Origin: Mucidula mucida
Lineage: Eukaryota > Basidiomycota > Agaricomycetes > Agaricales > Physalacriaceae
Assembly: GCA_015501055.1 (NCBI GenBank)
Contig: JADNYV010000019.1
Coordinates: 310,001-374,000, forward strand
DNA length: 64,000 bases
Reading direction: 5' to 3'
How positions within the stretch are numbered: the stretch's first letter is position 1; each line of letters opens with the position of its first letter. This document shows positions 18,973 through 49,241 of this stretch, piece by piece. The translations under genes were made by a program, and so were the position numbers. The notes below the pieces were generated by a model. The model saw only the letters and a program-made list of their open reading frames with translations, did not search any database and had not been told where the DNA came from.

Positions 18973-19796
18973 ATGACCAGCCCCAACATTGTAGCAGCAA
19001 TTCCACTTGAGGATATATTTGCATCAACCTTGCATCTCCGAAGATCACTACTGCGATACCTTGTCCTTGTTTCTCGCACACTAGGGTAAGAAGCAACAAG
19101 TTGCTCATTGGCTTGAAGTGGCTACTAACACGCTCTTAGCTTGACCCCCTCGAGTACCTCATGGGTTACAGCCGCGGTAAAATGGACACGCTCTTTAAGA
19201 CTGAAAATTCATTTAATATGACAGGTGGGTAGCCAACGCCCCTCGTAATTGAATATCGTTGCTCAGCATCAGTGTCAGTGCGCAAGGACGTGTTTGAGAA
19301 CTTATACAAGAAGTATGGTTGGGGCATAATACATACACATGAGGAACTTGAACACATTCTTGCCTTTCTTTGCGCCAACTACCAGGCTGGGGTCAGGAAT
19401 TGTGTCTTGTATACGACGGTGTATATCAAACAAACACTATTATAACTACTGTCCTGAGCAAAGTTCAATGTTGCCACCTAGGAATTCCCCACACAACCCT
19501 TGTACACATATCGTCTATTCTTCAACCAAGAACGTGTGCAACTCTACCATGAAGAACGGTCGGCCTTGCATCTCGGGGCAGATGCTGGTAACTACAAATC
19601 TGCACCCATTGCTGGCTATACCCCTGGCCTCGGACTTAACCGCCCTACCAATAACATTGACAAGGCCACCTCTAGTGTTCTCCGCTTGATTGGGATAGTC
19701 ATCTTTCGCCCCATCTGGCTGTCATAGTTCCAGAATCATTGCCCAAGGTTGCCTGAAGCTCGAGCGATATGGGATTGTCCTACACCACCACCTTAA
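18973..19796 (+). pseudogene. Decayed fourth copy of the unknown family found at 36264-39234
   Basis: All four exons are present. Exon 1 has AAIPLEDIF then KITTAIPCPCF after a frame change. Exon 2 follows an AG near 19140 and reads DPLEYLMGYSRGKMDTLFKT and ends NMT, 85 bases as in the other copies. Exon 3 reads VRKDVFENLYKKYGWGI and NYQAGVRNCVLYTT. Exon 4, opening with EFPTQPLYTYRLFFNQERVQ, needs two more frame changes (GRPCISGQMLVTTNLHPL is in another frame). Where the intact copy has LSWFQD this one has LS, then TAG, then FQN, so the Trp codon became a stop. With at least three frameshifts and one nonsense codon it is a true relic. It is on the opposite strand, 16 kb from the tandem array. 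Confidence 0.76.
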
Positions 19797-36263: not shown

Positions 36264-37082
36264 TCACTTGGCAGGCGCACGTCTTATTACTGGACAGTCA
36301 TATATAACTCGAGTTTGAGGACGTGGCTGGGCCAACCCCTTGCAATCCTGAAACCAAGACAGAAAGAGAGTGCGAGTGAGACTGCACTCAATCCATCGGA
36401 GAACATCTTCGGTCGCTTTCTCAAGATTATCGGATGGACTGTTGAGTAATGTGAAATCCCGAGCGAGGATTGCAGCCATACATGGATGGAGTGTGGTGGT
36501 CACAAGTGTTCCTCCTGATATGCAAGGCCGGCCATCGGGGAGGTGCAGTTGTACGATTCACTGTTGAAGTATAGGCGATAGGTGTAGGTGGGTTGCGGGA
36601 CGAATTTCTGTGCATCGGTCGAGAGCGATTCACCTGGCTTGAAATCATGGAACACACCTGCGTGTACATAACGCGTTTCTTGACCCCAGCCTTGTAGTTG
36701 GACTCAAAGAAGGCCAGAATATCATCATACTGGTCTTCATTTGGAGACAGTATCCCCCAAGAGTGCATCTTGAACAAACTCTCGCACACATCCTGCCGAA
36801 CTAGCGTCGGTAAGAAATTGATAGGAGACGAAGGCTTTGTGCACACTCGTGATATTGAAACACTTCTCGGTCGCCAATAAAAAATCCATCTCCCCACGGT
36901 TGTACCCCAAAGCATATTCCAGGTTGTCGCACTGCATGATACGTTGAGAAAGACAGAAGCGAATAATCACGCTGTCTTACTTTGTACGGATGGAAGCGGG
37001 GACAAGGTATCGGAGTGGTGATCTTCTGGGATGCCGCGTCGATGAAGATGTCCTCGAGAGGTATCGCTGCGTGGTGAGACAT
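36264..37082 (-). CDS. Unknown tandem family, copy 1 (one-base frameshift)
   Basis: Exons 37082-36981, 36931-36847, 36800-36658 and 36607-36264. Blocks in order: AAIPLEDIFIDAASQKITT with IPCPRF; LEYALGYNRGEMDFLLATEK; VCESLFKMHSWGILSPNEDQ; AFFESNYKAGVKKRVMYTQ; PTYTYRLYFNSE; LHLPDGRPCISGGTLVTTTL; HPCMAAILARDF; LSWFQD; QTRVIYDCP. Near 36555 one base is missing after NSE; with it the gene gives 224 residues. Intron phases 0, 1, 0 equal those of copies 2 and 3. No signal peptide, transmembrane segment or known domain is visible. It is the most diverged of the tandem copies. Soluble protein of unknown function. Confidence 0.76.
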
Positions 37083-37308
37083 GGTAAGGACGAAGTGAGA
37101 AACGTGACCGTTGCGGATGGATCGAGAACCCTTGAATTGATTGCAAATATGAAAAATGCCACATGTGGCGCAAGTATGCTGCCAAGATGAGATTCATGAA
37201 TGCCACCCAAAACGAAAGTATGATTTCACAATTCGTTTGATGCCGGCTTTGGATTGTACGAAGACATGACGCTCCTGCTGAGACACACACTCAAAGTCAT
37301 TCACATAA

Positions 37309-38166
37309 TTAGGCCACGCCGTCGTCTAAGTCTTCTTCGCGGGCATGCGTAGGCATGCGTAGTGAGCAGTCATAGATAGCTCGAGTTTCAGCACGGTTAT
37401 GGAGCAAACATGGGTTATCCTGGAACCAAGATAAAAAGAGGGGTTTATTGAGAACGCGATCAAAACCTCGAAGGAGATCTTTAGTCGCTTCCTCAAGGTT
37501 GGGCGGCTTGTTGAATAAGAGGAAATCCCGAGCAATGATTGTAGCCATACATGGATGGAGAGTGGTCGTCACAAGCGTCTTCCCCGACACGCAAAGCTGG
37601 CCGTCTGGCAGGTGTAACTGCACGGGTTTCTCGTCGAAATAAAGACGGTATGTGTAGGAGGTTTGCGGGGCGGATCTCTGCGCATTACCCGGAGTCGGTT
37701 GAGAGTTTGCTAGGCAGATTATGGAACGCACATGCGTATACATGACGCGCTCCTTGACCCCGGCCTTGAAATTGGACTGAAAGAACATGGCAAACTTTCG
37801 ACTTGGTCTTTGGAAGGTAGACTTCCCCAAGTGTGCATTTTGAATAAGCTCTGACACACATCCTGCCGAACTAGCAGTATTGCTGAGAAAAGATACAGAA
37901 TCGCGAGAAATAGGTGCTCACTCGTTATATCCATCGTCTTCTCGGTCTTATATAGGTGGTCCATCTCCCCACGGCGGTATCCTAAGGCATATTCGAGAGG
38001 ATCGCGCTGCACGACGCAATGAGGAAGGCAAAAGTCAAAGAACACGATCTCTTACTTTGAACACTTGGAAGCGCGCACAGGGGATAGGAATAGTCATCTT
38101 CCGGGACGTTGCATTGATGAAAATATCCTCAAGTGGAATCGCTGCGCTGTCGTTGTGGTAAGACAT
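37309..38166 (-). CDS. Unknown tandem family, copy 2 (one-base frameshift)
   Basis: Exons 38166-38056, 38006-37922, 37870-37732 and 37677-37309. Very close to copy 3: AAIPLEDIFINATSRKMTIP, DPLEYALGYRRGEMDHLYKT, VCQSLFKMHTWGSLPSKDQV, FFQSNFKAGVKERVMYT, PQTSYTYRLYFDEKPVQLHL, CVSGKTLVTTTLHPCMA, LFLSWFQDNPCLLHNRAE. One base is missing near 37796 in exon 3 (139 bases against 140 in copy 3); with it the protein is 234 residues. It has a C-terminal extension (HAREEDLDDGVA) not found in copy 3. The upstream flank also resembles those of copies 1 and 3, so the duplicated unit of about 1 kb includes the promoter. Confidence 0.77.
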
Positions 38167-38422
38167 GGCAAGGAGGAAGTGAGAAACGTGACCGTTGAGC
38201 TGATGATCGATGATCCCTTTATCCAATTGCAAATATGACACATGTGGCGCGAGTGCCAAGATGCGATTATCGAGACGAAGATTCCTCGCCCCCGAAGCGA
38301 AACGCGGGACGCTACGATTTTACAATTATATTCACGCGCCTACGAGGACATGACGATGACGATGACTGCTTGAATACACACTAAGAGTCATCGACATAAC
38401 TAGGCCAGGCTCTGCAACGTCT

Positions 38423-39234
38423 TCACTTATTGCGCATGCGTAGTGGGCAGTCATATATAGCTCGAGTTTCAGCACGGTTATGGAGCAAACATGGGTTATC
38501 CTGGAACCAAGATAAAAAGAGAGGTTGAGTGAGAGTGCAATCCATGGCTCGTAGAAGAGTTTTAGTCGCTTCCTCGAGGTTGGACGGCAGGAAATCCCGA
38601 GCAATGATTACAGCCATACATGGATGGAGAGTGGTCGTCACAAGCGTCTCTCCCGATATGCAAGGCCGACCATCTGGGAGGTGTAGTTGCACAAATTCAC
38701 TGTTGAAGTATAGGCGATAGGTGTAGGAGGTCTGAGGGGCGAATCTCTGTGCATCGTTCAGACTCGGTTGGGAGTTCGTTAGGCAAATTATGGAACGCAC
38801 CTGCGTATACATGACGCGTTTCTGGACGCCGGCCTGATAGTTGGACTCAAAGAAGAAGGCAACGCTTTCAACTTGGTCTTTGGAAGGCAGTATTCCCCAT
38901 GTGTGCATTTTGAACAAGCTCTCACATACATCCTGCCGAACTAATGTTGGTGAGAAAAGATAGATAATCACGAGGGATATGCGCTCACTTGTGATGTTCA
39001 TCGCTTTCTCGGTCTTATATAGATGGTCAATCTCACCACGGCGGTATCCTAAGGCATATTCGAGGGGATCGCGCTGCCAAAACGCGTTGAGGAGGATAGA
39101 AGTTGATGTTTATGTTCTCTTACTTTGAACACTTGGTACCGCGCACAGGGGATAGGGATAGTCATCTTCCGAGACGTTGCATCAATGAAAATATCCTCAA
39201 GTGGAATCGCTGCGCTGTTGTTGTTGTGGTTCAT
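38423..39234 (-). CDS. Unknown tandem family, copy 3 (intact)
   Basis: Exons 39234-39124, 39073-38989, 38940-38801 and 38746-38423; all phases agree and no stop interrupts, giving 219 residues. Exon 1 is AAIPLEDIFIDATSRKMTIP ending in CARYQVFK. Exon 2 is RDPLEYALGYRRGEIDHLYK. Exon 3 is RQDVCESLFKMHTWGILPSK with ESNYQAGVQKRVMYTQ. Exon 4 is FAPQTSYTYRLYFNSEFVQL, LPDGRPCISGETLVTTTLHP, RDFLPSNLEEATKTLLRAM and DNPCLLHNRAETRAIYDCP. It serves as the reference for the family. Neither a membrane segment nor a metal site is obvious; conserved Cys residues occur in IPC, DVCESL, PCISG, HPCM and PCLL. Family not recognised. Confidence 0.83.
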
Positions 39235-39547: not shown

Positions 39548-42500
39548 ATGTCATCAAACCGTCTTCGGTCGCCCTCCAGACAGAGAGTGCGCGACAGTAC
39601 TCCGCAACCACGTAGGAAACTTCCTTCTCGAGCATCAACCAATGCCTCAGACGGGTACACGTCGTATACGGATGATGAGATGCCAACCCCAAGGAGTAGT
39701 GTTACCAGCAAGCGCCGTTTACTGACCCGAAGGAAGGCTCTTGGGTTACGGCTCAACGAACGGAAACACAGACATGGTACTAGAGGTGAGTTCCAAAGAT
39801 GTTTATGCCATCTGATACATGAATGATTTGCTGCAGGAAACGATCCCATGGACTACGAACAGAAGTACAAGGAGGATCCTATCTATAAAGAGGTTGACCC
39901 AAACGCCCGCGTCTGGCGAACCTATCTTGACGAGAGTCAAACTTTTGACTCTGACATGACGGAAGATGCACGCGACACGGTTGATGTTCTCCTAGTTTTC
40001 GTGAGTCGGTCTACTGATGCTTATCACGTCGATCTAACAGATAGACTATTTAGGCTGGTCTTTTCTCCGCAGTGGTCACTACATTTCTCGTAGAGATCCT
40101 TCGTGGTCTGGAGGCAGACATGGGACAGGTATCGGCTTTCCTGCTATACGACATGTATACACTGCAGACCGCGTACTTCAACGGGACGTTGAACGACACG
40201 AAGTTCTCCTTCCGGCCTCCGCCAACGGAGTTTTCGGCGCCGCCGTTGAAGGTCTGGGTTAGCGCATTGTGGTTGGCTAGCTTGGCGCTGAGTTTGACCA
40301 TGGCGTTAATCGCCGTTTTGGTCAAGCAATGGCTGCACCACTACAGGTCTATTCCATCGGGAACGCCTCGTGATCGTGCTTTGGCCCGTCAATACCGCTT
40401 TGATGGGTTCAAGAAATGGCATGTCCCCTTCATCATTGGCTTCTTGCCTTTCCTGATGCTTCTCGCGTTGGCGATATTCTTTCTCGGGCTCATACTCTTG
40501 CTCTCCTCCATCTCCTTGAATCTTGGGATTATGCTTGCAGCTATTGCAGTTGCGGCATACGCGACGTACATCGTTTCGATCCTTTTGCCCGTTGTGTACT
40601 CGGATTGTCCGTATCAAACGCCGCTGTCGAAACCTGTGCACAAGCTCCTGCGCCTTATTGTTCCCCATTCATTCCTGTCCTCGTCGAACAGTAATCCCTC
40701 CTGGACTAAATTCAATGCCGTCACTATCGACCTGGCGGCGAGGTCGTTGCATTGGCTCTATGCGGTCTCTGTTAATTCATCTGTGCGAAGTATCGTTCTC
40801 CAGTCCTTCGGTGGCATGCCGCCTAGGGGTGTTTCTTCCCTCAAGCGCGCTTTTGATTACGACAAGGATTTTGCAGCACACTTTCCCGAAGCCATCTCCG
40901 ACATGCTCGAGCCTTCACCGACAGGAAAGTTCATGACATTGAAACACGGAACCGAAACTCGTTTGGAGCGCTTGTTGAGGTCTGCTCTGATTGTAACAGG
41001 TCCTCGTGATGTTCCGCGTATGATCTTCGGGAAGCCAACAAGTGTTGAACTTCGCGCTGTGCTTAGCGCGCACCATACATCATTTTTGGATGGCGGTTTG
41101 CATCCAAGTGAAATCTTCACTGCGTCAGCTCTGTCCTTGCATCCCATTGTTTGGGAGCATATACTTCGTCTCCCAAACGCGTTCCCGACCTTTATGAATC
41201 AGTACTCTGTCGATCTTGATTGGTGGAACCATTTCATCCCTCAATTCCAACCCCCGCCGCTTTATCGTAAATCTGAAGATGTCTCTCCTGACATCTTCCA
41301 AACAATTCCTTTCTCGGACGCCATAGTTCTGTGCCGCCCAGCCGTCGATGATGCTCTTACGCACCTCCTCGACTCGCTTAAATCATGTTGTACGAAGCCA
41401 GAATGCAGGTGTATTCTCGACCAGACAGTCTCACCATGGCTGCGGTTCCTGCTTTTTATCCTCAATCATACAGCCTTCCACACCCTGTTGTCCCGTCGGC
41501 GTAATTCCGGGGTTTCTATTTACTCTCGACAAAACACCCTTTTGATTGTTCGCTCCCTCGAATGTTTATGGCAAGGGCTACATGGACTATCCGGACATCA
41601 TTATACAATGCCAGATCGTCTCATGATATTCCAGGTCATCCGCAGAGTTATGGGTGGTCAGGTCTTGACAGATTCGCTCGAATACAGCGAGGTAGACTCT
41701 TTAGAACATATACGCGGCCTTACATTGTCAATATGTGCCGAGCTCAGTTACCTGGTTAACGTTCCGCTGCTTCCACATCACCCATATCTCCTCCCTCCTC
41801 CGTATCTCCCCCATTTGATCGGCCAAGCGCCACCGCCAAGTCGAGATGAATGGCTTTCTACGACGTTTCTACACAACATCTCTCGCCTGATTACGCCTCG
41901 AGGATCTGCCGATCTACACTGTTCAAAGGGAGCCCTCGACATCGCCTGCCAGTATCTCCAATACGGCATTGCGCGCGAAGTTCAGGCAGCTTACGACGAA
42001 TTCCTCGAGACCGATTTTATAGTACGATTTCGTAACTACCATGCATACGCGCCTGTCGCTGCGACTGTCCGCTGCTACGTTAGGAACATCCACTTCATGG
42101 TCCAACTCACCGGGAAAAGTCCAATCGAGCTTCAGCCTCACATCGCATACCTCACGAACCCGGAGACGCTCTTGTTGGCTTGCGCTATCCTCGGTGATTC
42201 TGGTGATGATGTTATCCACCTCGCAGCCCTTCGGCGCGAGCTCCCAGGACCGTCGCTCACCGTGTCTGAATGCGTTGAGGTATATATGAAGATGGATGGG
42301 CTTATCAAGGACGAAGTGTATTTTGCCGAACAGTATGTCCCCCGCGGAGATCCGTATGAATGGGTCCTTGTTGAGGATGCGCAGAAGAAGGAATGGAAAG
42401 GGTCGTTGGGGACTGTAGCTGTTAGGCTGTTCATGGAGTTGCGGAAGACGGTGGTGAATAACACCTGGATGGGGCCGAAAGCACTTGATCCGGCTTTTTG

Positions 42501-42555
42501 GGACGATGGGAGACAGCAGAGGGATGGTATTGTCGAGAAAGCAGCGGAATCTTGA
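39548..42555 (+). CDS. DUF6535 multi-spanning membrane protein
   Basis: Three exons (39548-39785, 39837-40000, 40054-42555), 967 residues. A basic Ser/Arg-rich head is followed by the DUF6535 domain: VWRTYLDESQTFDSDMTEDA, DTVDVLLVFAGLFSAVVTTF, an extracellular-type loop, WVSALWLASLALSLTMALIA, VLVKQWLHHYRSIPSGTPRD and VPFIIGFLPFLMLLALAIFF, with a further long hydrophobic region to about residue 300. The remaining 650 residues form a large soluble domain rich in helices. DUF6535 proteins are abundant and lineage-expanded in agaricomycetes and have no known function. All motifs are in place and the long last exon is uninterrupted, so the gene looks active. Confidence 0.9.
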
Positions 42556-49144: not shown

Positions 49145-49241
49145 CGACGCCGGCAAGATTTGAACTTGCGCTCGGAAACCGAAACAGATAACAATGACAC
49201 CCAGTTCGAATCTGTCGCCTTAACCACTCGGCCACAGCGCC
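49145..49241 (-). tRNA. tRNA-Ser (anticodon CGA) with a 15-base intron
   Basis: On the minus strand: acceptor GGCGCTG pairs with CGGCGTC, with discriminator G73. D arm GCCGAGTGGTTAAGGC. Anticodon stem ACAGA/TCTGT with loop TTCGAA-A once a 15-base intron after position 37 is removed. A long variable arm, as required for a type II tRNA, and T arm GCAAG-TTCAAAT-CTTGC complete it. The anticodon CGA reads TCG (Ser). Confidence 0.94.

Follow-up and report, generated by a model that had tools for sequence, protein, structure and literature searches.

Lineage-specific orphan gene families are known in fungi as a general kind, and the HD1/HD2 genes of the agaricomycete A mating-type locus form divergent gene pairs that encode related proteins. 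The W family of Mucidula mucida, which is unrecognised and represents a single branch within a larger superfamily that is related to HNH-like genes, resembles the orphan families in having named matches in two genera only in the searches made, tandem copies, pseudogenes and no named domain, but differs from them in its deeper relatives, in a common gene structure and in a recurrent opposite-strand partner. The larger group that includes W is here called superfamily A (W is our branch name for the proteins of the window), and the partner is called family B. Like HD1/HD2, the A and B genes form opposite-strand pairs, often head-to-head, but they occur as many dispersed copies instead of at one locus, and no match to a homeodomain was found among the scanned A, B or W proteins.

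A third comparison is offered by the HNH_2 family (PF13391). Members of B show the residue order and spacing of five HNH_2 loci from their own genome, namely a CxxT-like motif, (A)H and N-x8-H-x2-[FY], whereas W and A are homologous to B after its first half but are devoid of the CxxT/AH half and of the last histidine. No scanned W, A or B protein matches a Pfam HNH model. What had been an orphan family can now be put as a testable hypothesis, that of an ancestor in common with a nuclease-like gene and of a recurrent partner beside many relatives.

Structure and Decay of the W Copies

The window, i.e., the whole stretch of 64,000 nucleotides that was analysed (G000:C149:310001-374000), belongs to a Mucidula mucida (Physalacriaceae) assembly of 59.9 Mb in 1,047 contigs. 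As the original prediction had stated, three head-to-tail W copies lie on its minus strand as direct repeats with a spacing of about 1,070 bp, and a relic with in-frame stops lies on the opposite strand (Table 1). The gene model that had been proposed for the intact copy 3 proved exact, its protein being identical to NCBI CPB85DRAFT_1432193 (P0002); all three introns of this copy are of the GT-AG type and are 50, 48 and 54 nt in length. The four-exon structure is conserved as predicted: exon 2 measures 85 nt in all three window copies, the relic exon 2 aligns without gaps over 85 nt, and the six intact W models, which are distributed over two contigs, all share an 85-nt exon 2 and intron phases of 0/1/0. 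One intron among these six models is GC-AG. At the exon 2/3 junction, the NCBI protein departs from the genome reading at one residue in one model (L041/P0006) and contains three extra residues in another (L043/P0012).

Table 1. Positions of the W copies and of other features in the window and elsewhere in the assembly.
Feature	Location	Strand	Description
W copy 3, intact	window 38423..39234	-	exons 39234-39124, 39073-38989, 38940-38801, 38746-38423; 219 aa
W copy 2, frame broken in exon 3	window about 37309..38166	-	four-exon layout; ends by eye
W copy 1, frame broken in exon 4	window about 36264..37082	-	four-exon layout; ends by eye
W relic, in-frame stops	window about 18973-19796	+	exons 0.60-0.65 identical to copy 3
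DUF6535 gene adjoining copy 3	window 40054-42552	+	Pfam PF20153, E 2.8e-43
tRNA-Ser	window 49145-49241	-	act anticodon; ARAGORN call
W, intact model	C149:260k
W, broken copy	C149:261k
W, intact model	C149:270k
W, intact model	C2:33k
W, intact model	C2:47k
W, intact model	C2:57k
Degenerate W-like fragments (L044, L045)	G000:C57:118.7k and C382:15.1k		near-identical; beside SWIRM-like ORF (by eye)
Dispersed repeat	G000:C2:34590-34748		over 130 matches genome-wide
Three A copies	G000:C1004:91998-96278
Dispersed repeat beside A/B pair	G000:C793:145000-146300		1.3 kb; eight other places, 98-99% identical

The window had been described as holding one intact copy, two copies with a missing base and one dead copy. 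The single-base deletions and the stops of the relic were indeed found, but both broken copies also carry other length changes. Relative to copy 3, exon 3 of copy 2 is missing 1 nt, and exon 4 of that copy contains inserted stretches of 12 and 6 nt as well as a 1-nt gap; in copy 1, exon 1 is shorter by 9 nt, exon 3 is longer by 3 nt, and exon 4 has a 1-nt deletion and insertions of 12, 3 and 6 nt. The open-frame portion of copy 2 corresponds to P0009. A copy 2-like sequence with exon 3 open throughout (P0017) is present on another NCBI contig (2,957 bp), so strains may differ in the base missing from copy 2, or the assembly may be wrong there. The flanks, which had been described as duplicated too, are unevenly similar. 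Between copies 2 and 1, identity is 0.60-0.76 upstream and 0.42-0.53 downstream; between copies 3 and 2 it reaches 0.72-0.78 downstream, whereas more than 100 bp upstream copy 3 is 0.34-0.44 identical to either other copy. The exons of copies 3 and 2 are 0.84-0.89 alike, versus 0.67-0.80 for their introns. Taken as a set, the tandem, broken and relic copies agree with the local birth and death of genes that had been predicted.

Further W copies were identified on contigs C149 and C2, and degenerate pieces on C57 and C382 (Table 1); these near-identical pieces may stem from two haplotypes or from segmental duplication.

Selection, Domain Searches and Distribution of W

In all 15 pairwise comparisons of intact W genes omega lies at 0.18-0.40, ten of these values being rough because dS exceeds 1 in the pairs concerned. 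Among the window copies omega is 0.24-0.27, and against the relic it is 0.28-0.32. The original prediction had asked whether selection acts on the copies, and W copies are under purifying selection. Its suggestion of a role in self/non-self or environmental response is not established, as the omega values indicate constraint and not diversification.

The absence of any known domain, by comparison, was borne out. A Pfam scan of seven W and 11 A proteins yielded nothing above the cut-off, the scanned proteins having no match to HET or to another named fungal incompatibility domain, and a PDB sequence search gave no match. The structure of an A member (P0020) was predicted confidently by AlphaFold from 17 rows (pLDDT 81.9), and no significant match to this model was found in a fold search of PDB and BFVD. 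In three W proteins and one A protein, the Kyte-Doolittle maximum over 19 residues is 1.3-1.65. The W protein is small and probably intracellular.

Searches of the protein database returned 10 matches with copy 3, 16 with a seven-row W alignment and 28 with a six-row mixed alignment. Every named protein match in these searches belongs to Mucidula mucida or Hymenopellis radicata, with a few short contigs besides. Mucidula and Hymenopellis are related wood-rotting mushrooms. Because the protein search detects only relatives with shared five-residue words, remoter homologues may exist in other taxa. The name Oudemansiella mucida is an older one for Mucidula mucida. A genome paper (PMC8480192) reports on Oudemansiella mucida CBS 558.79 and states that its annotation was improved with RNA-seq. 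We infer that this assembly is the same as the one analysed here.

Superfamily A

Entry to superfamily A was provided by a weak W match on C793, the protein of which gives 126 matching stretches genome-wide and recovers window copy 3 itself (E 6.6e-4). When the typed subset of these stretches is merged, the superfamily comprises about 56 loci on 26 contigs, one of them being window copy 3. The original prediction was right about the local copies, but the family is far larger than the four that it had counted.

Members of A that were hand-spliced from C793, C118, C649, C135 and C505 align with W. In a seven-row alignment of A and W, the invariant positions are M1, L7, D32, E35, G39, R42-G43, D61, L65, K67, W71, N90, R98, Y113, H147-P148 and R207. 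A basic, RRSPR-like tail is present in 11 of 13 A proteins and in none of 12 W proteins, and this tail points to a possible nuclear location for many A proteins.

Family B and Its HNH-like Motif

Family B was found via a gene that lies head-to-head with the A gene of C793, and it comprises about 31 loci on 19 contigs. An alignment (A9) of seven hand-joined B members contains the motifs CxxT, VQxAHxxPR and LDTRxNI, together with YHxx[FY]D in five rows. Residues C20, H37, R41, D69-T70-R71 and N73 are invariant in all seven rows, while the last histidine of the motif occurs in five rows and is missing from two. The order CxxT / AHxxP / N-x8-H-x2-[FY]-D can be read from this alignment, and an HNH-like regular expression, which was written after the alignment was seen, matches five of the seven rows and at most three of 5,000 shuffles per sequence. 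The match in the C649 row is probably at an unrelated site, and the C505_47k row fails the CxxT part.

Neither Pfam nor NCBIfam gave an HNH match for B. When the B profile was compared with five HNH_2 loci of the same genome, a rough set (A10) consisting of five of six fetched loci joined by eye (C942 is below the Pfam cut-off), a probability of 11% over 19 columns was obtained. A rerun against this rough set gave 5.6% with the whole of B; with the first 95 columns alone it gave 11.6%, and the score of these columns, 22.1, is above those of all 100 shuffles (maximum 19.8). The A profile reached 0.1% against the same rough set. Because the profile support is weak and both Pfam and NCBIfam are silent, B is termed HNH-like and not HNH; at the level of the motif, we infer that B may be, or may have been, an HNH-type nuclease.

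Common Ancestry of W, A and B

A profile comparison of A (alignment A8) with B (A9) yielded a probability of 97.5% (E 6e-12), and the W-only alignment (A4) yielded 95.4% against B (E 1.7e-8). In an hhalign rerun, A versus B gave 97.4% with a score of 83.9 and W versus B gave 91.4% with a score of 49.4, compared with maxima of 23.0 and 21.8, respectively, in 100 column shuffles each. The similarity spans the LEYxLG ... HPC region, downstream of the first HNH half. A single B query matches A loci at E 0.07 at best, and the A-B link therefore needs profiles.

The gene structures of the three groups also coincide. In five B genes, a phase 0 intron lies three residues before [LI]EY, a phase 1 intron lies before the codons leading to YH, and the third intron, again of phase 0, lies before the (W/Y)xY region; these three positions and their phases (0/1/0) are the same in B, in W and, as judged by eye, in the A gene of C793. 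In a maximum-likelihood tree, W (branch supports 97/94), A (89/91) and B (100/99) each occupy one side of a branch, with the reservation that the tree is unrooted, having no outgroup, and that long branches may join falsely. Groups inside W are common to both genera, and copy 3 is on a long branch.

The HNH-like motif itself is confined to B. Its full pattern was found in none of 12 W and none of 13 A proteins, some of these sequences being incomplete. For the exon that encodes CxxT/AHxxPR no counterpart can be recognised in W or A, the first exon of which is different and in W encodes another segment, PLEDI...TIPIPC. At the position of the last histidine of B, anchored on intron 2, A has V and W has C or F. 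Pfam scans of copy 3, six other W proteins and one A protein detected no HNH family with an E limit of 10, and neither did those of ten A proteins with a limit of 1. On this sequence evidence, it is highly probable that W and A share an ancestor with B and that the motif has been lost. B would then represent the ancestral state, with W and A as derived, motif-less forms. The original prediction missed the homology to B and the pairing described below because both lie outside the window.

Opposite-Strand Pairing of A and B

An A locus was found within 3 kb of 27 of the 31 B loci, compared with 0.19 B loci expected under random placement, and in all 27 cases the two are on opposite strands, 20 of them divergent and 7 of them convergent. 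Counted as pairs within 3 kb, all 35 A-B pairs are opposite-strand and none is same-strand. Conversely, of 58 A loci, 32 lie within 3 kb of a B locus and 26 do not. The adjacency count rests on hand-typed rows, i.e., 91 of 126 A-query rows and 55 rows out of 63 + 54 B-query rows, the rows left out being weaker ones, extra pieces of typed loci and B-query matches on A loci. Neighbouring loci may have been fused by the merging within 700 bp, and fragments are counted among the loci; the merged list holds 56 A and 31 B loci, and the list retyped for pair orientation holds 58 A loci. Some loci are near-duplicates, C505 and C182 being 99% identical over 1,095 bp and C279/C638, C649/C884 and C135/C146 being near-copies too as judged by score, so that independent pairing events number fewer than 27. 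Pairing is seen across B sub-branches of strongly differing sequence.

B-like remnants lie tail-to-tail with the W copies at C2:33k and C2:47k. For the former, the first and last parts were found, with a dispersed repeat inside the reading (Table 1), and the YHxxFD part was not; for the latter, the last part only was found. No B gene was detected beside W in the window, in C149:255-275k or around C2:57k (C2:52-62k).

The spread of the copies over 26 (A) and 19 (B) contigs, along with dispersed repeats beside or inside several loci, could be taken to mean that a mobile element carries the A/B genes as cargo or accessory genes, with no role in the host. We regard this as very improbable, since the matches to relatives of the C793 pair cover either the gene or the gene pair and have ends that differ between groups, introns are conserved, omega in W is well below 1, groups within W are common to two genera, and the 10 window ORFs scanned contain no transposase domain.

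Proposed Function of the W and A Proteins

The best overall explanation, which we hold at about even odds on the strength of sequence comparison, is that W is an HNH-like-derived, nuclease-dead binding partner or antagonist. As W and A are without the HNH-like motif, they would no longer cut nucleic acid and would act by binding. The target would most likely be their own or B-type proteins, with a role as heteromer partner or antagonist, and an A/B pair would consist of a nuclease-like protein and its dead partner. W would be a branch of the A type, with no B neighbour detected on C149 and an apparently broken one on C2, and may now act alone or on B proteins encoded elsewhere. The binding-partner or antagonist mechanism, considered by itself, is tentative, and we would sooner doubt it than rely on it.

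An equally tentative possibility is that W and A are free-standing, lineage-specific binders of nucleic acid or chromatin, and that the pairing is a trace of inverted duplication with no functional link. The basic tail (RRSPR-like) that 11 of the 13 A proteins carry would suit such binders, although W is without it. Given the homology of A and B, an inverted tandem duplication suffices to explain the layout of the pairs; in addition, W persists with no detectable intact B neighbour, and a B within 3 kb is missing at 26 of 58 A loci. On the other hand, not one of 35 pairs is same-strand, and pairing across divergent B sub-branches has outlasted the passive decay that would be expected.

The self/non-self idea of the original prediction, made specific, would be that the A/B pair works as a module of selfish or self/non-self type (toxin-antidote or incompatibility): harm would be done by B, the neighbouring A would give protection, and W would be a branch of antidote-like character that has been orphaned. 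The pairing of 27 of the 31 B loci with an A on the opposite strand, the expansion of a family seen so far in two genera only, its broken copies and the presence of a nuclease-like motif in B but not in A or W are all in line with this idea; nevertheless, W gives no sign of diversifying selection and B is unproven as a nuclease, and we consider it unlikely. Only slightly better odds are given to a more extended proposal, still a speculative one, according to which Physalacriaceae would possess a large undescribed system of opposite-strand pairs, each made up of an HNH-like B and a dead A as its obligate partner or antidote; W would have outlived its B and might continue to give protection from B proteins of other loci or of mates.

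Should a nuclease-like protein and its dead homologue indeed work as a functional module, such pairs would constitute a mushroom conflict or recognition system that is unnamed in the libraries searched. Regardless of function, about 56 A and 31 B loci can be annotated as one superfamily, the scanned members of which have no Pfam match above the cut-off.

The C-terminal part of P0031 (NCBI CPB85DRAFT_1562430) aligns with the family and its N-terminal part does not, and this is probably a fused gene model. On C1004, three A copies follow each other at an exact spacing of 1,810 bp and have identical scores, with a B gene nearby (Table 1).
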